Assembly: GCA_013141455.1 (NCBI GenBank)
Contig: JABFQW010000006.1
Location: 54,227-118,226 of the forward strand
Source: Bacteroidales bacterium
GTDB taxonomy: Bacteria; Bacteroidota; Bacteroidia; Bacteroidales; F082
DNA length: 64,000 nt
Direction: 5' to 3'
Below the pieces are notes generated by a model that saw only the letters and a program-made list of their open reading frames with translations, did not search any database and was not told the DNA's origin. Positions within the stretch are counted from its first letter, which is position 1. Each line of letters starts with the position of its first letter. Positions 46,281 through 59,474 of this stretch are shown piece by piece. The position numbers and the translations under genes are program-made.

Positions 46281-49200
46281 ATGAAAAAAAATTACCTTAT
46301 GAAAAAAAAATCAGGATTATTAAAATTGGGTTTATTACTCTTTTGTTTAACAATAGGGTCAATGAACACATTTGCTCAGTTTAGTCAAACCAATGGCCCA
46401 AAAGGCGGTGATATCAGAAGTTTTGTTAAACATAATTCATACCTGTTTGCAGGAACGTTTTCCGGTGGCGCTTTTCGTTCTTCTGATAACGGGGATAATT
46501 GGAACGCTATTAATACCGGCCTAACAACAGGCAGTTATGCACCTAACCAGGCATTACGGGTTAAAGCTTTCCTATCTTATGGTAATGATTTGTATGCCGG
46601 AACTGATGGTGGAGCATTCCGTTCATCTGATAATGGTGAAACATGGAACATGATCGATGGGATACCCATGAATGTTTATTCCTTCACCGCAATTGATTCA
46701 GTTCTCTTTGCAGGGACAAATACAGGTATTTACCGTTCAACAGATTATGGCAGTTCCTGGCAACGGATAACAAATGTATTTAATAGTGCCTGTAATGCGC
46801 TCATCAAAAAAGGAAGAAAAATAATTGCCGGCAGTTCATACCAGGGTGTTTATATTTCTGATAATAATGGTGATAGCTGGACCATCTCAAATTCCGGCTT
46901 ATCCGATAAACATATACTCTCCTTCACGGTCAAAGGAACCGATTTGTTTGCAGGTACCTTTACCGGTGTATTTCGTTCTTCGAACAATGGTGGTACATGG
47001 ACAAAAGTCAGCACGGTTGCAACAACAGGTTCATTTTGTTATTCAATGACGAATGATGGCGCCAGTGTATTTGTTGGAAGTAGCATCGGTGTTTTTACTT
47101 CATCAAATAACGGGGGAAGCTGGACAAGTGTAAACAATGGAATCCCTGCAATAAACACCTATGCTTTGGCTTACGATAGCACCAATATTTATGTCGGAAA
47201 TTACACAGGAGTTTATAGGTCAGGCGATAATGGTGCTTCTTTTATCGAAACCAATAACAACTTAAACGCCAGGTTCATCTCCTCATTTGCTTCTATCGGT
47301 AGTTATCTGTTTTCATCATCACAATATGGTGGTGGTGTTTACCGCTCCGATGACAACGGCGAAACCTGGGAACTCAAAAATAATGGCTTACCCTATTTTT
47401 ATACTTCTATTAAACTTTCATCTGAAGGAAATGCTCTAATTGCGAATGGTTATCTGGCTTCACCGATGGGTTATTATGATTATGTTTCGTATGATTACGG
47501 CGAAAGCTGGACTTTATTTAACCACAATCTTCCGGTTGTTGAATATATATTCTCACACATCGACATTGGGGATACCATCATAGTAAACACCGATGGTGAT
47601 GGTGTCCTGCGTTCGATTGACGGCGGAGCATCATATCAGACAGTTAATTCAGGCTTGGAGGCAATCATCGACCCAATGACCGGATTATATCTGGCAGTTC
47701 CAAGTATGTATTTATATGATACAACTTTATTTATCGGAACACCCAATGGTATCTATCGTTCAGCCGATTATGGAGATTCATGGACCTACAGCGGGTTACA
47801 GGGTGTCACTTTAGTCGGTTCTTTTGCCTTTGAGTCAATTGGCCCGAATTTATTTGCCGCAACTTTATTGAGCGAAAGCAGCGATCATACTGATGCCGTG
47901 TATCTTTCATCCGACAATGGGCTTACATGGGAAACAATCTCATCAGGAATTACCCAATTTGCTACAGAACATTTTAAGAAAATGTATGTGATGAATACAA
48001 ACCTGTTTGTAACGACAGATAATGCATCTGTTTTAATAACAAGAGATTACGGAGAACATTGGATCAATATCACTCCGTCAGTATCCGGAGGAGGCTGGGA
48101 CAATTTCGATGTTGCAGAATCAGATTCAGTGATGTTCATTTCATCTTTCTTTACTGGCATATATGCTTCAATTGATGATGGGTTGAATTGGGTTGATATC
48201 AGTAATGGTATTAATGATGAACCTTATATCAGTGTTGGGACGATTATCGTTAAAGACGATTATTTATATGTCGGCACATCAAATCAGTCGGTCTGGAAAC
48301 GAAATTTATCCGAAATAGCAGCTCCGGCTCAACCTGATGCAATTGCAGGTCCAACAACACCGTGCATTGGATCATCTCAAACGTATAGTGTAACCAATGT
48401 AGCCGAAGTAACTTACGCCTGGCAATTCCCACAGGGATGGACAATTACCGAAGGATCCACAACCAGTTCGGTAACGGTAACGGTTGGCAGTGCGGCAGGA
48501 GTTATTGCAGTAACACCTTCGAATAGTTTCGGCACAGGGCCTTCTCAATTTCTTGTTGTTACACCAGCTGCTTACCTTGAAGCCGGAGTCACTATCGTGT
48601 CAGATCAGAATAATATTTGTGAAGGAACAGCGGTTACTCTAACTGCTACACCTGCCAATGGCGGTGAAAACCCTGCTTATCAATGGTTTGTGAATGGTGT
48701 CGAAACCGGAGAAAATAGTCCGGCCTTTAGTTTTATACCGGTAAATAATGATGAAGTGAGTGCTCTGTTGACTTCCTCATACGAATGTATATCGAATAAT
48801 CCCGTAGAATCGAACACCATACAGTTTCAGGTTACCGGAATGGTAGATGTAATCGTCTCAATCACTGAGGATAAAAACGATATTTGTGCAGGCGATGTTA
48901 TGACCTTCACCGCTACCACAACGAATGGTGGCGATCAACCGGCATATAGCTGGTTTGTTGGTGAAGAAAATGTTGGTGAAAATGCGGATACATTCTCTTA
49001 TATTCCCGAAAATGGCGACATCGTTTCACTTGTTTTCACTTCAAATTATTGGTGCGTTTCACAGAACCCGGTAACTTCAAATGCTATCGTTGCGATTGTA
49101 AATACACTACCCGTTGTTACCTGGAATTATACCGATCCTACCACCGTGTGTATCGAAGACTGGGGTCCAATTACATTAACTGGTGGATTACCCGAAGGTG

Positions 49201-49598
49201 GCATCCACTCAGGCACCGGTGTTAGCGGTAATATTTTCGATCAGGCTGTGGCCGGTGTTGGAAACCATGTTATTAGCTATACTTATACCGATGCGAACTA
49301 TTGTTCAAACCAGGCAACTATCGAATTTACAGTTGATGCCTGCCTTGGTATAACAGAATCAAATCATGGATTGCTCGTTTATCCGAACCCAGCCTCTGAA
49401 AATCTTACAATCAAACTGAACAACCAGAATATAGTAGATGTGATCCTGTACAACAGCATGGGAATCAGGGTATATAACGAGCTTAATGTGAAAGCTTCAA
49501 ATATAACAGTTCCGGTACAAAATCTGCAGGCCGGAAATTACATGCTGAAAGTTATAACTGATAGCGAAACAATTGTGAAACCGGTAATAATTAATTAG
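46281..49598 (+). CDS. T9SS Asp-box beta-propeller surface protein (F)
   Basis: Signal MKKKSGLLKLGLLLFCLTIGSMNTFAQF; Asp-boxes; Ig-like repeats; LLVYPNPASENLTIKLNNQ. Confidence 0.9.
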   Translation: MKKNYLMKKKSGLLKLGLLLFCLTIGSMNTFAQFSQTNGPKGGDIRSFVKHNSYLFAGTFSGGAFRSSDNGDNWNAINTGLTTGSYAPNQALRVKAFLSYGNDLYAGTDGGAFRSSDNGETWNMIDGIPMNVYSFTAIDSVLFAGTNTGIYRSTDYGSSWQRITNVFNSACNALIKKGRKIIAGSSYQGVYISDNNGDSWTISNSGLSDKHILSFTVKGTDLFAGTFTGVFRSSNNGGTWTKVSTVATTGSFCYSMTNDGASVFVGSSIGVFTSSNNGGSWTSVNNGIPAINTYALAYDSTNIYVGNYTGVYRSGDNGASFIETNNNLNARFISSFASIGSYLFSSSQYGGGVYRSDDNGETWELKNNGLPYFYTSIKLSSEGNALIANGYLASPMGYYDYVSYDYGESWTLFNHNLPVVEYIFSHIDIGDTIIVNTDGDGVLRSIDGGASYQTVNSGLEAIIDPMTGLYLAVPSMYLYDTTLFIGTPNGIYRSADYGDSWTYSGLQGVTLVGSFAFESIGPNLFAATLLSESSDHTDAVYLSSDNGLTWETISSGITQFATEHFKKMYVMNTNLFVTTDNASVLITRDYGEHWINITPSVSGGGWDNFDVAESDSVMFISSFFTGIYASIDDGLNWVDISNGINDEPYISVGTIIVKDDYLYVGTSNQSVWKRNLSEIAAPAQPDAIAGPTTPCIGSSQTYSVTNVAEVTYAWQFPQGWTITEGSTTSSVTVTVGSAAGVIAVTPSNSFGTGPSQFLVVTPAAYLEAGVTIVSDQNNICEGTAVTLTATPANGGENPAYQWFVNGVETGENSPAFSFIPVNNDEVSALLTSSYECISNNPVESNTIQFQVTGMVDVIVSITEDKNDICAGDVMTFTATTTNGGDQPAYSWFVGEENVGENADTFSYIPENGDIVSLVFTSNYWCVSQNPVTSNAIVAIVNTLPVVTWNYTDPTTVCIEDWGPITLTGGLPEGGIHSGTGVSGNIFDQAVAGVGNHVISYTYTDANYCSNQATIEFTVDACLGITESNHGLLVYPNPASENLTIKLNNQNIVDVILYNSMGIRVYNELNVKASNITVPVQNLQAGNYMLKVITDSETIVKPVIIN

Positions 49599-49842: not shown

Positions 49843-50754
49843 TTAATAAAGATTCTCAACTGACAGATAACGCTCTCCTGTGTCGTAGTTGAAAGTCAGG
49901 ACGCGGGAACCGACAGGCAGGTTGGGAAGACTTTTTGCCACAGCAGCCAGGGCAGCACCGGTTGATATCCCGACAAAGATCCCTTCTTCCCTGGCTATTT
50001 TTCGTGCATAATCGTAGGCTTCATCTTTACCAACCCTGACTATTCCATCGATCAGATCGGCCCGGTAAATTTTCGGGACAAATCCTGCTCCGATTCCCTG
50101 TAATGGGTGCGGACCCGGATCACCACCGCTTAAAACGGGCGAAAGCTCCGGCTCAACAGCAAAAACCTTTACGTTTGGAAACTTCGCTTTAAGTACTTCG
50201 GCAATACCTGAAATATGACCACCTGTTCCAACGCCTGTAATTATATAATCCAGACCGTCAGGAAAGTCGGTTAGAATCTCCTGAGCCGTTGTCCATTTGT
50301 GTATCTCAACATTTGCCTGATTGTTAAACTGCTGAGGCATCCATGAATTCGGGATTTCAGAAGCAAGTTCGGCAGCCCGTAGTATGGCTCCTTTCATCCC
50401 CTTTTCTTTGGGCGTCAATTCAAACTGCGCACCAAAAGCCGACATGAGTTTCCGGCGTTCGATACTCATCGACTCAGGCATGACCAGGATGATTTTGTAT
50501 CCTTTTACCGCTGCCACCAAGGCCAGTCCAACACCCGTATTACCCGAAGTCGGCTCTATGATTATGCTGTCTTTGTTCAGTTCGCCTCTATTTTCGGCGT
50601 CCTCAATCATGGCCAGAGCAATCCGATCCTTGATGCTGTTACCCGGATTGTTTCTTTCTAATTTAATCCAAACTTCGTGTACACTGCCAAAAAGTTTGTT
50701 TATTCTAACATGCGGGGTGTTCCCGATGGTTTCTAAAATGTTATTTGCTTTCAT
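49843..50754 (-). CDS. cysK: Cysteine synthase (O-acetylserine sulfhydrylase)
   Basis: [32 protein letters not shown] (PLP Lys), [46 protein letters not shown]. Confidence 0.95.
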
Positions 50755-50769
50755 AGTTTTGAATGTGAT

Positions 50770-51585
50770 TTATATAATAAAATTTAATGGTTCAGGAAAT
50801 TGTTGATTTGTTTTGATAATGATCTCACTCTTGTGAAATACAAGCGAACAGTCGGGGATCGACTGCGTGGTCCACACATTGCCGCCAATGACCGAATCGT
50901 CGCCAATGACTGTGTTACCTCCCAGAATGGTGGCATTGGCGTAAATCACCACCCTGTTACCGATTGTAGGATGCCGTTTGGTTCCTGCTATCTTCCTGCT
51001 GACACTCAGAGCTCCAAGGGTAACACCCTGATATATTTTTACATCGTTGCCAATTTCGCAGGTTTCACCGATGACCACTCCCGTTCCGTGATCGATCAGG
51101 AAACGCTCCCCTATTCTGGCTCCCGAATGAATGTCGATACCGGTTTTAAAATGCGCGTATTCTGATAGTAAACGCGGAATGATTTTCACCTCAGCCAGAA
51201 ACAGCGCATGGGCCAGGCGATGGATCGCCACGGCATAAAATCCCGGGTACGAAAACAACACCTCATCGATCGACCGGGCGGCCGGATCAGAAATGAAGAT
51301 GGTTTCCAAATCACTTTTTAACAGTCCGTGAATGACCGGAAGCTGATTAAAAAATTCTCTGACGAAAGCTGCCGCATCTCCGGGATACGCGTTTATCTCC
51401 CGGATGAAATGTTGCAAATCCTGTTTCAACTCTGCCTCTTTCGACAGAAAAACCTCAATCCGCGAATACCTGGGATGGATAGAAAAAAGCCAGTCGAAGA
51501 TTTCATCGGCCCAGGCTGACAGGCTTCTCTTGTCGAACGAAAGCCGCAAAAACCGTGCATTATTCTCAAAAATCGGATGTGTCAT
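50770..51585 (-). CDS. cysE: Serine O-acetyltransferase (EpsC/CysE family)
   Basis: Left-handed beta-helix hexapeptides: GIDIHSGARIGERFLIDHGTGVVIGETCEIGNDVKIYQGVTLGALSVSRKIAGTKRHPTIGNRVVIYANATILGGNTVIGDDSVIGGNVW; 15 bp upstream of cysK on the same strand. Confidence 0.93.
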   Translation of the reverse strand: MTHPIFENNARFLRLSFDKRSLSAWADEIFDWLFSIHPRYSRIEVFLSKEAELKQDLQHFIREINAYPGDAAAFVREFFNQLPVIHGLLKSDLETIFISDPAARSIDEVLFSYPGFYAVAIHRLAHALFLAEVKIIPRLLSEYAHFKTGIDIHSGARIGERFLIDHGTGVVIGETCEIGNDVKIYQGVTLGALSVSRKIAGTKRHPTIGNRVVIYANATILGGNTVIGDDSVIGGNVWTTQSIPDCSLVFHKSEIIIKTNQQFPEPLNFII

Positions 51586-51678
51586 ATCTTATGATTATTT
51601 GTAAAATTAACTTCTTATATGTACTGATATACAAACTATTAACTATCGCTAAGTTTTATAAAATATAGCAGGTAAACG

Positions 51679-51710
51679 AAAAAAGCCCTTCTGCTTTCGC
51701 GGAAGGGCTT
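51679..51710 (-). terminator. Attenuator terminator 2 of the cysE-cysK leader
   Basis: On - strand: AAGCCCTTC-cgcgaaagca-GAAGGGCTT followed by a U run. Confidence 0.85.
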
Positions 51711-51740
51711 CTGAGAACGTGATCTGCTTTTACAACAAAT

Positions 51741-51839
51741 TCAACAACACATAGGTTTGCCTTTCCGCATTTGTAAACACAAACAGCAACACATACAGTT
51801 TTGAACTGCGGAAGGAATGAATTTGGACTGATCTATCAT
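51741..51839 (-). CDS. Cys-rich leader peptide 2 (32 aa)
   Basis: MIDQSKFIPSAVQNCMCCCLCLQMRKGKPMCC; 7 Cys codons, read directly from the reverse complement. Confidence 0.8.
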   Translation of the reverse strand: MIDQSKFIPSAVQNCMCCCLCLQMRKGKPMCC

Positions 51840-51859
51840 GACAAAAGTTCTAGAATGAT

Positions 51860-51890
51860 AAAAAAAAGGCTTCCCGTTAACGGAAAGCCT
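51860..51890 (-). terminator. Attenuator terminator 1 of the cysE-cysK leader
   Basis: On - strand: AGGCTTTCCG-ttaa-CGGGAAGCCT then TTTTTTT. Confidence 0.85.
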
Positions 51891-51927
51891 GATCTGAATA
51901 ATATTTTATTATAAGGCTCTCCGGAAA

Positions 51928-51999
51928 TCAAACGTACACCGTACAACACATAACTGTGTCGCAGGAAACGTTTAAAATATTTTGAGCGCTGTGATTCAT
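51928..51999 (-). CDS. Cys-containing leader peptide 1 (23 aa)
   Basis: MNHSAQNILNVSCDTVMCCTVYV; UGC and tandem UGU UGU codons a short distance before the stop. Confidence 0.75.
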   Translation of the reverse strand: MNHSAQNILNVSCDTVMCCTVYV

Positions 52000-52018
52000 T
52001 GTTCTTATTTGTGAACTG

Positions 52019-52050
52019 CAAAAGTAGAAGTAAGTTTTATTAATAAACAA
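52019..52050 (-). promoter_or_regulatory. Putative promoter of the cysE-cysK leader
   Basis: On - strand: cTTG at 52050, 21 nt, TACTTTTG at 52026-52019 (Bacteroidota -33/-7 consensus TTG / TAnnTTTG). Confidence 0.65.
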
Positions 52051-52324
52051 GTTTCTTTTTCACTTTTTTTAACTAGCTGAATATATGCACGATAACCTAT
52101 TATTATAAATTTTGTCATGAACTATCATTCTCCGGTTGTTCGACAGGATCACTGTTTGTTCAATGATCTGGTTGAAACAAACGGATAGGAATCTATTCTC
52201 GATGAACACCTTTCTATTTCAAGATTTTGCAGGTTCATAGCGAAGACAGACCCAAAGAAAGGATTTTGTTTCGATATAGAAATAGATTACTAATATATTA
52301 AATATCAATTATATATGTTCATTT

Positions 52325-52414
52325 GTACATAAATTGTACAGATGGATTTATTTCCTGGTAAGTATAATGTCGTGGTGAATTATTTTTTTTTCCTGATGAG
52401 GAGAATGACCTTTG
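52325..52414 (+). promoter_or_regulatory. Array promoter element, copy G
   Basis: TGTACATAAATTGTACAGATGG (TGTA 52335) ... AATGTCGTGG (52368) ... GACCTTTG (TTTG 52411); spacing 76. Confidence 0.7.
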
Positions 52415-52437
52415 TCATTATAAAAAAAAAGTCAGAA

Positions 52438-52587
52438 ATGAATGATCAGGTAAACAAAAATGAGGAGAAAACAGTGAATTTGTATGTATTGGTAAGCAAA
52501 TTAAAAATCATTAATTGTCTGAAAAATAACAATTTATCTATCAGATATATTTCCTTAACCCTTTTCATTTATTCCATTCTGTTCTGA
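52438..52587 (+). CDS. Degenerate small ORF family member, copy G
   Basis: MNDQVNKNEEKTVNLYVLVSKLKIINCLKNNNLSIRYIS...; ATG 27 nt after TTTG; LVSKLKIINCLK resembles LVKKLEIQRKILK of copy D but the C-terminus differs. Confidence 0.4.
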   Translation: MNDQVNKNEEKTVNLYVLVSKLKIINCLKNNNLSIRYISLTLFIYSILF

Positions 52588-52648
52588 TTACCCAATTTTA
52601 ACAAAACAAACTGATTCAAATTAATCATTAACAATTAAATAAACATCT

Positions 52649-55600
52649 ATGAAAAAAAATCTGAATTTTACTCTGTTATTCAGTGCTTTGCTGTTTTTTT
52701 TCCTGAGCATCGAATCGTTGCAGGCCCAAACCTGGGAGCCTACCAACGGGCCGTATGGCGGACCGGTACAGTGTTTTGCCGAAAACGATTCTTATCTGTT
52801 TGCAGGATCATCGGGAGGTGTGTTTGCAAAAGGAGTTTTCCGCTCAGCTGACCACGGAGCAAACTGGACAACCGTAAACAATGGTCTGAGTAATGTTGGT
52901 ATGGGAAAAGACATCTATGCACTTGCTGTAAGCGGATCATATATCGTTGCTTCAACAGGCCAAGGTATCTACCGTACAGCCGATAATGGTGACAACTGGT
53001 CAGTCTGCGATTATAGTGGTACGTATGTTCCCAATGCTTTTTACAGTATCGGATCCGATTTATTGGCCGGTGGCTCGTCAGGATTGTATGTTTCGACAGA
53101 TAATGGACTTACCTGGGCTTCGCAAAACGAAGGTTTTCAAGGAATTAGCCCGCCAAGTGTACCCGAAATACAATCATTTGTAATGAATGGAACAACCCTT
53201 TATACCGGAACCAATCAAAAAGGTATCTTCCGTTCCACCAATAACGGACTAACCTGGACCACGGTGAATGGTGGATTAGGAACCCCTTCACAACTGAGCC
53301 AAAGAAACTTCAACAGCCTTGTGTTCGAAAACGGGGACATTTTTGCCGGGACATTCGGACAGGGTGTTTTCCGTTTGCGCGATAATGGCAACAACTGGAC
53401 CAATGAGGTAAACGGTTTACCCAACTTTCAATCCAAATATATCAGGTCAATCCTCATAAAAGATAGCTACGTTTATATCACTACTCTGACTGGTCTTTAT
53501 CGTTCTGAACTGGCTGGTACAATCAGTTGGACGCTTCAGGATATTACTCCCTCGGATTTAAATTTAGTAAAACTTTTTGGCAGTGGTTCAGATATCTTTG
53601 CTTCAACAGAAAGAGGCGTTTGTATATCTACCGATAATACTGCAACCTGGACCACATCTTTTGATGGCATGCTTGGATTAAATGCAACAGTGTATTCAGC
53701 AGGCGGAACTGATTTGTTTGCTGCTACCTCGGGAGTTGGCAACGGTTATTTTTATCGTTCATCCGATTTTGGCGAATCCTGGGATATGGGTAATATGGTT
53801 GGTGCCCCCTACCCTTTTAACGGATATCTGTTTTTATGGAAAGCTGAAGGAATTTTCCGTTCGGCTGATAATGGTGAAACCTGGGATTTAATTTATGATT
53901 TCGGTGGCTTGTGCTATTTTCATTCGATGGGATCAACACTTTTTGCAACCATAACCTGCTGTGAAACAATTTACTATTCAAATGACAACGGTATAAGCTG
54001 GACACCCTCAACCTTGTTGGATTTGGGTGGCTTTTGGGGAAATAACATACTTGATCTCACTAATGACGGTACTACACTCTATGCAGGAACTTTGAATATC
54101 GGGGTACTAAAATCTATAGACAATGGCGTGAACTGGACCACCTGCAATACAGCGATGGGTAATATTCCTATCCGCGCCATGGCAACCGACACTACCTATA
54201 TTTATGCAGGCACAAGTAATTTTTATGAAGATCCAAATCTCCAGGCAGTCGGGATATATCGCTCTGCTGACAATGGCACTACATGGACCCTTGTAAATAA
54301 TGGACTTGGTAATCTGGATATCGGTTCATTGGTAATCAATGGCAATGATATCTATGCCGGAACAAAATCAGGTATTTATAAATCATCAAATAACGGCGAT
54401 AACTGGATTCCAATGAATGATGGATTTACAGTTTCGCCCAACACAACATCCATGGTGGTCTCAGGTAATTATCTGTTTGCCAATAATTTTGCACCCTCAT
54501 TGGGCGCTCCGATTTACCGACGGGCTTTATCAGGCTCAGTTCCTGAACAGCCGGATGAAATCGTTGGCACGGCAACTCCCTGCATCGGTTCGAACCAAAC
54601 TTATAGTGTAACCAATGTTCCCGGCGTGACCTATGCCTGGCAGGTTCCTTCCGATTGGACCATTCTGTCGGGTAACGGAACCAATTCAATCAATGTGACG
54701 ATTGGTGTTCAGGCCGGCGCGGTATTGGTTACTCCATCGAATGGCTGGGGAAGCGGACCTACCCAGTTCCTGGCTGTTGTTCCAACCACAGCAGTAGAAG
54801 CAGAAGTTTCGATCGCAGCAGATCAGGATATTTTCTGCAGCGGATCAACAGCCATTATTACTGCAATGCCTGTCGAAGGCGGCGAAACACCCGTTTACCA
54901 ATGGTTTGTGAATGGAATCGAAAATGAAGAAACCGGCTCGGTATTAACCTATATTCCAACCAATAACGATGAGGTATATACGTTGTTAACTTCATCACTC
55001 AGCTGCGTAACCAATAACCCTGTACAATCAAACACCCTGCAGTTACAGGTAACTGAAGCCATTGATGTAATCGCATCTATCGATGTTGACAAAAACAATG
55101 TATGTGCGGGCGATGTTATGACATTTACCGCCACAACAACGAATGGTGGTGAACAACCTGAATACAGTTGGTACGTGAACGAGGCAGTTGCCGGTGAAAA
55201 TGCTCCGATTTTCTCATATACACCAGAAAATGGTGATATCGTTTCATTGGTTTTCACTTCAAGTGAATGGTGTGTTTCGCAAAATCCGGTAACATCAAAC
55301 GCGATTGTTGCCATCGTGAAACCGCTACCCGATGTTAGCTGGAATTATACCGATCCAACCACGGTTTGTATCGAGGATTGGGGTCCGATTACATTAACAG
55401 GCGGACTTCCCGAAGGAGGTATTTATTCAGGCGATGGCGTAAGTGGTAACATCTTCAATCAGGCTGTTGCGGGTGCAGGTAATCACGTTATTAGCTATAC
55501 CTATACCAATGCAGACTTTTGCTCAAACCAGGTAAGTATCGAATTTACGGTTGACGAATGCCTTGGTATTTCAGAAGCGACCTCCAGACTGCTCGTTTAT

Positions 55601-55822
55601 CCAAACCCGGCAATCAATAATATGACGATCAAACTGATGGATAACCAGACGATCCTGGATATTACATTGATCAACAATATGGGCATAACTGTATATGAAA
55701 ACCATGACGTAAAATCAATGGGAACAGTGATAATACCGGTTCAACATATAAAGGCCGGAAACTACACAATCAAAGTGACCGGCAATAACGAAACAGTAAT
55801 AAAATCAGTGATCATTGAATAA
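52649..55822 (+). CDS. T9SS Asp-box beta-propeller surface protein (G)
   Basis: MKKNLNFTLLFSALLFFFLSIESLQAQTWEPTNGPYGG; Asp-boxes; Ig-like repeats; LLVYPNPAINNMTIKLMDNQ. Confidence 0.9.
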   Translation: MKKNLNFTLLFSALLFFFLSIESLQAQTWEPTNGPYGGPVQCFAENDSYLFAGSSGGVFAKGVFRSADHGANWTTVNNGLSNVGMGKDIYALAVSGSYIVASTGQGIYRTADNGDNWSVCDYSGTYVPNAFYSIGSDLLAGGSSGLYVSTDNGLTWASQNEGFQGISPPSVPEIQSFVMNGTTLYTGTNQKGIFRSTNNGLTWTTVNGGLGTPSQLSQRNFNSLVFENGDIFAGTFGQGVFRLRDNGNNWTNEVNGLPNFQSKYIRSILIKDSYVYITTLTGLYRSELAGTISWTLQDITPSDLNLVKLFGSGSDIFASTERGVCISTDNTATWTTSFDGMLGLNATVYSAGGTDLFAATSGVGNGYFYRSSDFGESWDMGNMVGAPYPFNGYLFLWKAEGIFRSADNGETWDLIYDFGGLCYFHSMGSTLFATITCCETIYYSNDNGISWTPSTLLDLGGFWGNNILDLTNDGTTLYAGTLNIGVLKSIDNGVNWTTCNTAMGNIPIRAMATDTTYIYAGTSNFYEDPNLQAVGIYRSADNGTTWTLVNNGLGNLDIGSLVINGNDIYAGTKSGIYKSSNNGDNWIPMNDGFTVSPNTTSMVVSGNYLFANNFAPSLGAPIYRRALSGSVPEQPDEIVGTATPCIGSNQTYSVTNVPGVTYAWQVPSDWTILSGNGTNSINVTIGVQAGAVLVTPSNGWGSGPTQFLAVVPTTAVEAEVSIAADQDIFCSGSTAIITAMPVEGGETPVYQWFVNGIENEETGSVLTYIPTNNDEVYTLLTSSLSCVTNNPVQSNTLQLQVTEAIDVIASIDVDKNNVCAGDVMTFTATTTNGGEQPEYSWYVNEAVAGENAPIFSYTPENGDIVSLVFTSSEWCVSQNPVTSNAIVAIVKPLPDVSWNYTDPTTVCIEDWGPITLTGGLPEGGIYSGDGVSGNIFNQAVAGAGNHVISYTYTNADFCSNQVSIEFTVDECLGISEATSRLLVYPNPAINNMTIKLMDNQTILDITLINNMGITVYENHDVKSMGTVIIPVQHIKAGNYTIKVTGNNETVIKSVIIE

Positions 55823-56309: not shown

Positions 56310-59300
56310 ATGAAAAAAAAATTAAACTTTATCTTGTGGTTCAATGCTTTTCTGATTTTTGTCGTGGGCATTGAAACCCTGTCTGCTCAAACCTGGGAAC
56401 CTACCAATGGTCCTTATGGAGAAAGAGTTCAGTGTTTTATCGAAAACAGTTCTTATATTTTCATTGGGACAGGCGGTGGTTATTATGCGCATGGAATTTA
56501 CCGCTCGGCAGATGATGGACTTAGCTGGAGCAGTTGCAATAACGGATTATCCACAGTAAACATGGGACTCGATGTGCCAACCATGGGTTCATCTGGAAAC
56601 TATTTACTTGCTGCTGCCGGATTTAAAGTGTATCGTTCTGATAACAATGGTGATACCTGGATACAAACCAATTATAATGACACTTATGTTCCCACTGTTT
56701 TTGTAAATGATGGAAGCTATTTATATGGGGCAGGGAATATGGGTCTTTATGTTTCGACAGATAACGGTTTAAACTGGATATCAAAAAATAACAATATACC
56801 GGGATTTAGTTCTCAAAATCCTGCGCCAATCCAATCGTTAGTCGTAAGCGGATCATACCTGTATGCCAGCACAAATAACCATGGAATATTCAGGTCGGCT
56901 GATCATGGCGAAACATGGACAACGGTAAATACCGGTTTAGGTAATGCCTATGAAATAGCGCACAGAAACTTCAAAAAGTTAGTCGTTGCCGGTGATGATG
57001 TCTTTGTAGTTGCAGAAGGAACAGGTGTATATCCGATCACTTTTGCAGGAGTTTTCCGGTTAGCCAACAATGGCAATACCTGGACGAATGAATCTACCGG
57101 CTTACCGGTAAATTTCTGGAATGGCCTGATGGTGAAAGATAATCTGATCTATTGTGGTGGTATTTCAGGAATTTATGTTTCCAGTTACAGTGGTCAGTTG
57201 AACTGGTCGGCTTTGAACAGTGATTTGCCGATTCAAAATATTTCCGTACTATACCAGGGATTTACAGATGTTTATACAGCCGGTGAAATGCAGATTTACC
57301 GTTCAACAGATAATTTATCAACATGGACGGCTGTCTATGATCAATTACCGGGCTATCATTCAAATATGATTACCAACATCGGAGATGATGTGTATGCAGA
57401 AATGAACTCGCATCTGTTTCACACGTCTGATTTCGGTGAAAACTGGACCTCACTGAATATGGGTACCTTGAGCGCAGGACCATGGGAACATGGAAACTAT
57501 CTGTTTTGCAGCTACCAATACAGCGATTTTTACCGTTCATCTGACGGTGGCCTTACCTGGACTGAACTTCCAGAATTTGTAAATCTAACATGGGAAGCGC
57601 CTTCTACTTTTTTATCGAAAGGAGATACAATTTTTGCAGGTGGAGGCTTCCAGGGTGATGCCTATGGTATTTTTTATTCGTTGGATAATGGTGAAACCTG
57701 GAGTCAAACCGCTGGTTGTTATGTAGCGCCCGGATCTATAAATCAAGTAGGTAACACTATGTATGCTGGAACTGTAAACGGAAGTTTCATCTCTACGGAT
57801 AATGGTTTGAACTGGAGTCCGTGTTTCCCTTTAAACCCGGGTATTTCGTTGTTTTTTAATGGTTCGGATATCTACTCCACCGGAGGAGGTGTTTTTCATT
57901 CATCAGACAATGGCGCCCATTGGAGTAACATTAGTATTCCTGACAGAACCCACAGTAAATTAGTTTTCAACGGAGACGAAGTATATACAGCCACACTTGA
58001 ACAGATAGGATCGGAATTCATTCCGGGAGGAATATATAAATCAACGGATCAGGGTGCACACTGGACAGAATTTAATGAAGGTTTTGAGTCACTCCCTTAC
58101 GCAACGTCATTGGCAGTTGCCGGAAATTATTTATTTGCAAATAACTTTTTTACTGGTGCTGCAGCGTATCGCAGGGCATTGTCGGGCGATGCTCCATCTG
58201 AACCCGATCCGATCGTAGGTAATGAATCGCCCTGTATTGGCTCAACACAAATCTATAGCGTAACAAATGTTCCTGAAGTCAACTATACCTGGGAAGTACC
58301 TCAGGACTGGATCATCACCGCCGGACAGAATACCAATTCAATTACTGTAACAGTTGGTACTTTCACCGGTTGGGTAAAAGTAACACCTTCAAACGGCTGG
58401 GGAAACGGTCCGGCACGTCTACTAACCGTAACCCCCACACTTACAGCCGATGCCAGTATTTCGATAGAAGCCGGTCAGAACAATGTTTGCCAGGGATCAC
58501 CAGTCGTTATCACAGCCACCCCATCTGAAGGAGGAGACTCACCAGTGTATCAATGGTTTGTGAACGATGTCGAAAATGGCGAAACCGGCCCGGTCTTAAC
58601 CTATATTCCGACCAATAATGATGAGGTGTATGCCTTATTAACCTCTTCACTCGAATGTGTCGTAAACGATCCGGTACAATCAAATATCATACAGATACAG
58701 GTTAGTGAGCCTATTGAAGTAACCGTCACTATTGATGTTGACAAAAACGATGTTTGTGCAGGCGATGTTATGACATTTACCGCCACAACCACGAATGGTG
58801 GTGATCAACCTGAATACAGTTGGTACTTGAACGAGGCAGCTACCGGAGAAAATGCTCCGACATTTGCTTATACTCCTGAAAATGGTGATATCGTATCATT
58901 GGTTCTCACTTCAAGCGAATGGTGTGTTTCGCAGAACCCGGTAACATCAAACGCGATTGTTGCCATCGTGAATCCATTACCCGAAGTTAGCTGGAATTAT
59001 ACCGATCCAACCACGGTTTGTATCGAGGATTGGGGCCCGATTACATTAACTGGGGGTTTACCCGAAGGTGGCGTCTATTCAGGTGACGGTGTTAGCGGTA
59101 ATATTTTCGATCAGGCTGTTGCCGGAGCTGGTAATCACCTTATTAGCTACACCTATACGGATGCTGAGTTTTGCTCAAACCAGACAAGTATCGAATTTAC
59201 GGTTGACGAATGCCTTGGTATTTCAGAATCAGCCACCAGATTGCTCGTTTATCCAAACCCGGCAAACAAAAATATAACGATCAAACTGATGGATAACCAG

Positions 59301-59474
59301 GCTATATTGGATATTACGTTGTTCGACAATATGGGCATAGCTGTATATGAAAACCATGACGTAAAATCAATGGGAACATTGATAATACCGGTTCAACAGG
59401 TAAAGGCCGGAAACTACATTATCAAAGTAACCGGCAATAACGAAACATTAATACGATCAGTGATCATAGAATAA
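56310..59474 (+). CDS. T9SS Asp-box beta-propeller surface protein (H)
   Basis: MKKKLNFILWFNAFLIFVVGIETLSAQTWEPTNGPYGE; Asp-boxes; Ig-like repeats; LLVYPNPANKNITIKLMDNQ. Confidence 0.9.
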   Translation: MKKKLNFILWFNAFLIFVVGIETLSAQTWEPTNGPYGERVQCFIENSSYIFIGTGGGYYAHGIYRSADDGLSWSSCNNGLSTVNMGLDVPTMGSSGNYLLAAAGFKVYRSDNNGDTWIQTNYNDTYVPTVFVNDGSYLYGAGNMGLYVSTDNGLNWISKNNNIPGFSSQNPAPIQSLVVSGSYLYASTNNHGIFRSADHGETWTTVNTGLGNAYEIAHRNFKKLVVAGDDVFVVAEGTGVYPITFAGVFRLANNGNTWTNESTGLPVNFWNGLMVKDNLIYCGGISGIYVSSYSGQLNWSALNSDLPIQNISVLYQGFTDVYTAGEMQIYRSTDNLSTWTAVYDQLPGYHSNMITNIGDDVYAEMNSHLFHTSDFGENWTSLNMGTLSAGPWEHGNYLFCSYQYSDFYRSSDGGLTWTELPEFVNLTWEAPSTFLSKGDTIFAGGGFQGDAYGIFYSLDNGETWSQTAGCYVAPGSINQVGNTMYAGTVNGSFISTDNGLNWSPCFPLNPGISLFFNGSDIYSTGGGVFHSSDNGAHWSNISIPDRTHSKLVFNGDEVYTATLEQIGSEFIPGGIYKSTDQGAHWTEFNEGFESLPYATSLAVAGNYLFANNFFTGAAAYRRALSGDAPSEPDPIVGNESPCIGSTQIYSVTNVPEVNYTWEVPQDWIITAGQNTNSITVTVGTFTGWVKVTPSNGWGNGPARLLTVTPTLTADASISIEAGQNNVCQGSPVVITATPSEGGDSPVYQWFVNDVENGETGPVLTYIPTNNDEVYALLTSSLECVVNDPVQSNIIQIQVSEPIEVTVTIDVDKNDVCAGDVMTFTATTTNGGDQPEYSWYLNEAATGENAPTFAYTPENGDIVSLVLTSSEWCVSQNPVTSNAIVAIVNPLPEVSWNYTDPTTVCIEDWGPITLTGGLPEGGVYSGDGVSGNIFDQAVAGAGNHLISYTYTDAEFCSNQTSIEFTVDECLGISESATRLLVYPNPANKNITIKLMDNQAILDITLFDNMGIAVYENHDVKSMGTLIIPVQQVKAGNYIIKVTGNNETLIRSVIIE

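Follow-up and report, generated by a model that had tools for sequence, protein, structure and literature searches.

Predicted tandem cysteine attenuators in the leader of cysE-cysK in a member of the Bacteroidales

What is an intrinsic terminator doing between a small open reading frame with adjacent cysteine codons and an operon for cysteine synthesis? We analysed a 64,000-nt stretch of Bacteroidales DNA (the window) in which two such leader ORFs, each with its own terminator, lie in series upstream of cysE-cysK. We consider it very likely that they are tandem ribosome-mediated transcription attenuators that sense charged tRNA-Cys in the cysE-cysK leader. Codons for the end product occur in the leaders, intrinsic terminators stand before cysE, and antiterminators that exclude the terminators are predicted to lie clear of a stalled ribosome.

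The cysE-cysK operon is the target expected of a cysteine signal. The serine O-acetyltransferase (EpsC-like) encoded by cysE (50770-51585, minus strand) matches NF041874 at 151.4 bits (cut-off 150) and TIGR01172 at 175 bits, which is under the cut-off of that model; this genome has no other strong match to cysE. cysK (49843-50754, minus strand) encodes cysteine synthase A (TIGR01139, 399.6 bits, above the cut-off). The nearest gene upstream of the leaders begins at 52649 on the plus strand, divergent from cysE-cysK. Because this neighbour is divergent, terminator 1 sits in the 5' leader and serves no other gene, and we ruled out that it marks the end of the upstream gene. The operon (49843-51585, minus strand) is flanked by genes for three alike long proteins of ~1050-1100 amino acids on the plus strand (46281-49598, 52649-55822 and 56310-59474) and lies between the first and the second. 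Two of their products were scanned (46281-49598 and 52649-55822), and these have Sortilin/BNR-like repeats, PKD_6 and Por_Secre_tail (type IX secretion). The Por_Secre_tail domains and the named relatives of cysE both point to Bacteroidota as the host phylum.

The -7 promoter consensus of Bacteroidota is TAnnTTTG. A putative -7 box that matches it (TACTTTTG, 52019-52026, minus strand) lies ahead of leader 1, with a TTG at 52050-52048, 21 nt upstream of the box. Transcription would start just 5' of leader 1. Sequence inspection found no TAnnTTTG box directly before leader 2; we therefore assumed a single transcript and rejected a separate promoter for leader 2. About half of the relatives likewise have a TAnnTTTG box 5' of their leader. 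Upstream of cysE in two genomes, the end of the -7 box is 4 nt from the leader ATG (TATCTTTG-TGGC-ATG in L008 and TATGTTTG-CATC-ATG in L010), so these leader peptides may come from leaderless or near-leaderless RNA.

Leader 1 (MNHSAQNILNVSCDTVMCCTVYV; 51928-51999, minus strand) ends in a UGA stop codon at 51930-51928. Its Cys codons 18 and 19 are adjacent (UGU UGU, 51948-51943), and Cys 13 is at 51963-51961; relatives usually have 3-5 adjacent Cys codons. A preliminary description of this DNA had claimed that a segment 5-14 nt past the leader 1 stop can form 10 contiguous pairs, one of them G-U, with the 5' arm of a terminator. We found these features in the sequence, with all coordinates correct. 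That is, the antiterminator segment CGGAGAGCCU (51914-51923, minus strand) pairs with AGGCUUUCCG at 51890-51881, which forms the 5' arm of terminator 1. Terminator 1 is a 10-bp hairpin (AGGCTTTCCG-TTAA-CGGGAAGCCT; 51867-51890, minus strand) followed by a 7-U tract (51866-51860). Antiterminator 1 begins 19 nt past the leader 1 Cys pair.

Both structures stand out from shuffled sequence. A pattern scan of 51500-52700 on both strands gave 2 terminator sites, compared to 0.3 expected from shuffles, and terminator 1 was the sole site on the minus strand. The score of the antiterminator 1 helix gave the lowest p value that 300 shuffles of the sequence in between can yield (p=0.003). Folding energies are -15.1 kcal/mol (z -4.5) for the antiterminator 1 hairpin and -15.9 kcal/mol (z -5.1) for terminator 1 in a 51-nt context; the two are thus near isoenergetic, and they are mutually exclusive.

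The proposed switch depends on where the ribosome stops. The front edge of a ribosome is ~12 nt past the A-site or translated codon (PMC4833913). With ample Cys-tRNA, a ribosome would pass the Cys codons, reach the leader 1 stop and cover 51927-51916, a stretch that includes 8 of the 10 antiterminator bases. Terminator 1 would then form and transcription would end. With scarce Cys-tRNA, the ribosome would stall on UGU UGU with its edge at ~51931, and all of 51923-51914 would be free. This segment would then capture the 5' arm of the terminator while its 3' arm is still to be transcribed, allowing the polymerase to read on.

Leader 2 (MIDQSKFIPSAVQNCMCCCLCLQMRKGKPMCC; 51741-51839, minus strand) would pose the same test again, here with three Cys codons in a row (CCC) and with an antiterminator that lies within the ORF. 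Its Cys residues follow the pattern C-M-CCC-L-C, with codons 17-19 at 51791-51783. Antiterminator segment 2 (UGCGGAAAGGC; 51759-51769, minus strand) begins 13 nt past the Cys run and pairs, with one mismatch, with GCCCUUCCGCG of terminator 2 (AAGCCCTTCCGCGAAAGCAGAAGGGCTT and a U tract; 51683-51710, minus strand). The simple pattern scan of 51500-52700 passed over terminator 2 because of an internal mismatch; a second scan and a fold detected it. With two tests in series, cysE-cysK would be made only if both terminators were passed. A second Cys-Cys pair is found at the end of leader 2 (51741-51749, minus strand), immediately before the stop codon, and a ribosome stalled there would be downstream of antiterminator 2.

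Each leader also contains a possible protector. In leader 1, AGCGCUC (51984-51990, minus strand) pairs in the minimum free energy fold of 52010-51865; according to this single-sequence prediction, it is possible that it holds antiterminator 1, via GAGCCU, when leader 1 lacks a ribosome. In leader 2, CCUUCCGCA (51807-51815, minus strand) is complementary to antiterminator segment 2, and sequence inspection gives a 7-bp match of UUCCGCA with UGCGGAA.

We found that units of this kind recur upstream of cysE in other Bacteroidota. We collected relatives of cysE from ~1,400 genomes (same family, order, class and phylum) and a named collection, and screened 269 Bacteroidota cysE upstream regions for a small ORF with a Cys-Cys pair ahead of an intrinsic terminator. 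A leader with a Cys run and a terminator was present in 32 of the 269 regions, for 33 units in all; examples are MRNFKLYKNCCCCDFFTAGEVFI (L055), MNKGMSYMFTCCCCCVLHQHG (L085) and MFLDQIYMACCKCCFRIREGLAMS (L094, Flavobacterium suaedae). The window is the only one of the 32 positive loci with two units; about thirty relatives have one.

For each unit we located the best helix between the sequence following the Cys run and the 5' arm of the terminator. Peptide length and spacing vary among units. In 30 of 33 units, the antiterminator begins 9-21 nt past the Cys run (median 14, quartiles 13-17). Shuffled regions placed a mean of 7.5 units, and at most 16, in this interval (500 trials). In contrast, the distance from the stop codon to the start of the antiterminator varies widely (quartiles -29 to -12; range -41 to +79). 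Based on the constant distance from the Cys run and the variable distance from the stop codon, we infer that it is the stalled ribosome, rather than the stop, that sets the geometry. Two units (L127 and L227) depart from this spacing, and a third (L112) is within the 9-21 nt range with weak pairing; L227, with a spacing of 100 nt, is probably a chance match. Leader 1, in which the segment follows the stop, is one extreme of the family geometry. One relative, L195, has the same geometry, with a segment that likewise begins just past the stop.

The antiterminator segment and the 5' arm of the terminator co-vary across the units of the family. The mean pairing score was 17.3, compared to 11.8 for shuffled sequences (sd 0.39), and the leader 1 unit had the highest score of all 33. 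Segments paired with their own arms scored 16.0, compared to 13.2 when arms were swapped among genomes; the maximum from 10,000 permutations was 15.0 (p=1e-4). Arm sequences are diverse, and the leader segment changes with them: GGGTAGA pairs with TCTACCT in L085, AATGAAGG with CCTTCATT in L093, TCTTGGAGG with CCTTCAAGA in L092, CAGGGGAGG with CCTTCCCTG in L083, and TCCGCAGAG with CTCTGCAGA in L176. The covariation on which the preliminary description had meant its pairing to be judged is therefore found among the family units; the leader 1 pair itself has no ortholog in the genomes searched.

We also asked how a ribosome would affect pairing by folding each RNA with a 30-nt ribosome mask, as it would be before the 3' arm of the terminator exists. 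For the family, the mean antiterminator probability was 0.83 with a ribosome stalled at the Cys run, 0.53 with no ribosome and 0.25 with a ribosome at the stop, and it was higher at Cys than at the stop in 31 of 32 cases. This contrast is partly geometric, since a mask placed at the stop will to some extent cover the segment by design. The corresponding values for shuffled regions were 0.26, 0.24 and 0.14, indicating that the masking effect exceeds geometry. For the complete RNA at equilibrium, nearly every unit was predicted to adopt the terminator. Since the terminator is favoured at equilibrium, the switch would need kinetic capture, with the outcome set by which helix forms first.

For leader 1, the antiterminator probability was 0.98 with a Cys-stalled ribosome, 0.98 with no ribosome and 0.37 with a ribosome at the stop. 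It did not exceed 0.15 in the complete RNA at equilibrium. Because the truncated RNA forms this antiterminator even without a ribosome, transcripts that are not translated might escape termination. The preliminary description had proposed that a ribosome stalled at UGU UGU frees the segment, which agrees with both the predicted edge and the masked fold; the stall would then lead to read-through. It had also proposed that a ribosome at the stop covers the segment and lets the terminator form. This part is consistent with the 8 covered bases and the lower predicted probability at leader 1, but occlusion specific to the stop is not conserved, because in most relatives the segment is inside the leader ORF. 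Thus, the mechanism is supported at the level of the family, and the conserved ruler runs from the Cys run to the antiterminator.

How did the window come to have two units? The closest cysE genes that we found, in L032 (70% identity) and L033 (68%), have one leader each, and that leader matches leader 2. Over codons 1-19, leader 2 and the single leader of L032 are identical at 31 of 57 nt. In these two leaders and in leader 1, codon 19 is the last of the Cys run. Leader 1 matches the L032 leader at 27 of 57 nt, or at 19 of 45 once the Cys run is excluded (codons 2-16; p=0.01), and matches leader 2 at 21 of 57 nt (p=0.06), or 13 of 45 without the Cys run. Leader 1 may be a recent copy of leader 2, but it resembles leader 2 weakly and the L032 leader better. 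We found neither an ortholog of leader 1 nor a second tandem in 174 genomes of the window's family and 19 genomes of the family of the nearest cysE carriers. Based on these comparisons, leader 1 is likely to be a duplication or an acquisition within this lineage. A cysE of this similarity is present in 2 of the 174 genomes of the window's family, and the nearest cysE belongs to another family of the order, which together suggest that the cysE-cysK operon was probably acquired horizontally.

The arrangement in series is the most unusual feature of the locus, and it rests on one genome. We lean, with some reserve, toward the view that leader 2 is ancestral and leader 1 was added in this lineage, perhaps by duplication, and that the two attenuators respond to the same cysteine signal. 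Their termination probabilities would multiply, and the response would be sharper or less leaky than that of a single unit.

Could unit 1 instead be a decayed or redundant copy that causes constitutive partial termination, with leader 2 and terminator 2 as the only working attenuator? In close relatives the only leader is of the leader 2 type, leader 1 has a single Cys pair and a short tail, and its weak similarity to the L032 leader and the shared 19-codon length hint at a duplicate. However, decay should have broken at least one of the parts of leader 1 that are intact: its ORF, a strong terminator, a 10-bp antiterminator, and a Cys-to-antiterminator distance in the range of the family. We therefore regard a decayed copy as unlikely. 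It is harder still to attribute the arrangement to chance, that is, to a small ORF with two Cys codons that happens to lie near an unrelated terminator. Cys-Cys pairs and short ORFs are common, and leader 1 is not conserved. Against this, the upstream gene is divergent and leaves terminator 1 with no other gene to serve, and spacing and pairing in the family are far above shuffles. In addition, a small ORF with a run of at least 3 Cys codons precedes the terminator at 22 of the 46 loci that have a terminator near cysE; at the same 46 loci, runs of Leu were found at 13 and runs of every other residue at 3 or fewer. We give chance hardly any credence.

A second architecture occurs upstream of cysE in other Bacteroidota (L206, L207, L208, L211, L213, L214, L218, L222, L253, L256, L259 and L264). 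These leader ORFs finish in, or close to, a run of Cys codons at the stop (for example, ...SLVCCCCCC or ...NCCCCLCCCCGC, each followed by the stop codon), 39-77 nt before cysE. A pyrimidine-rich stretch follows the stop, and our search of these loci found no intrinsic terminator. These leaders are possibly under translational or Rho-dependent control. One could propose from this group, and from mycobacterial Cys leaders, which likewise lack terminators (PMC1262725), that the leaders in the window also act chiefly on translation, by reinitiation or by unmasking the cysE start, and that the hairpins are incidental. Each leader in the window, however, is followed by a strong hairpin with a U tract, for which there is a matching antiterminator, and leader 1 is >300 nt from the cysE start, to which we saw no pairing. 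We consider a mainly translational role very unlikely for this locus, and favour tandem transcription attenuators.

Attenuation in Bacteroidota is poorly described. Bacteroidetes attenuators were reportedly treated by Lopatovskaya in 2010, and Canestrari is said to have described the polycysteine leader ORFs of mycobacterial cys operons in 2020. The cysE leaders provide about thirty natural variants of one switch, with a ruler of ~14 nt from Cys run to antiterminator that reads out the front edge of the ribosome. The tandem lets one ask what is gained by placing two sensors of one signal in series, and the terminator-less leaders with Cys at the stop are a natural comparison between transcriptional and probably translational solutions on cysE. 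Mentions of leader-peptide attenuation in Bacteroidota are general ones, in transcriptome papers (PMC9723704, PMC7366714). In a search that was light on subscription literature, we found no report of Cys attenuation of Bacteroidota cysE or of a tandem that responds to one signal.

Classical ribosome-mediated attenuators are found in the trp, his, ilv, leu and pheA leaders of amino-acid operons. The window has in common with them a leader peptide rich in the regulated residue, an antiterminator and a terminator that exclude each other, sensing through the position of the ribosome, and a biosynthetic operon downstream. It differs in its cysteine signal, its cysE-cysK target, its Bacteroidota host, and its two complete units in series. 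An Rfam scan found no leader family at the gathering threshold; the best-scoring leader families were Phe_leader with 20.2 bits (threshold 55) and L10_leader with 18.7 (threshold 44).

Three other known systems resemble it in part. The uORFC-8-2 motif upstream of cysS in Rhodobacterales has been proposed to act through Cys-tRNA stalling (PMC8632094). Like leader 1, it has two adjacent Cys codons in a uORF and a terminator stem with a U run. Unlike the window, it is from Alphaproteobacteria, targets cysS, and has a different two-stem structure and a single unit; by target (cysE) and host (Bacteroidota), the window is not a member. The cys operons of mycobacteria have polycysteine leader ORFs without intrinsic terminators (PMC1262725). 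There, too, a leader ORF with a Cys run controls cysteine/sulfur genes, but there is no conserved intrinsic terminator and the Cys run is near the stop. Both leaders in the window have terminators, which places it outside the mycobacterial type; the second Bacteroidota group, with its Cys run at the stop, is closer to the mycobacterial leaders than the window is. A parallel to the series arrangement is mgtCBR of Salmonella, in which tandem attenuators answer ATP and proline (PMC3641672). In both cases, two leader ORFs with attenuators lie in series on one mRNA. In mgtCBR the two units answer different signals, whereas both units in the window carry Cys codons.
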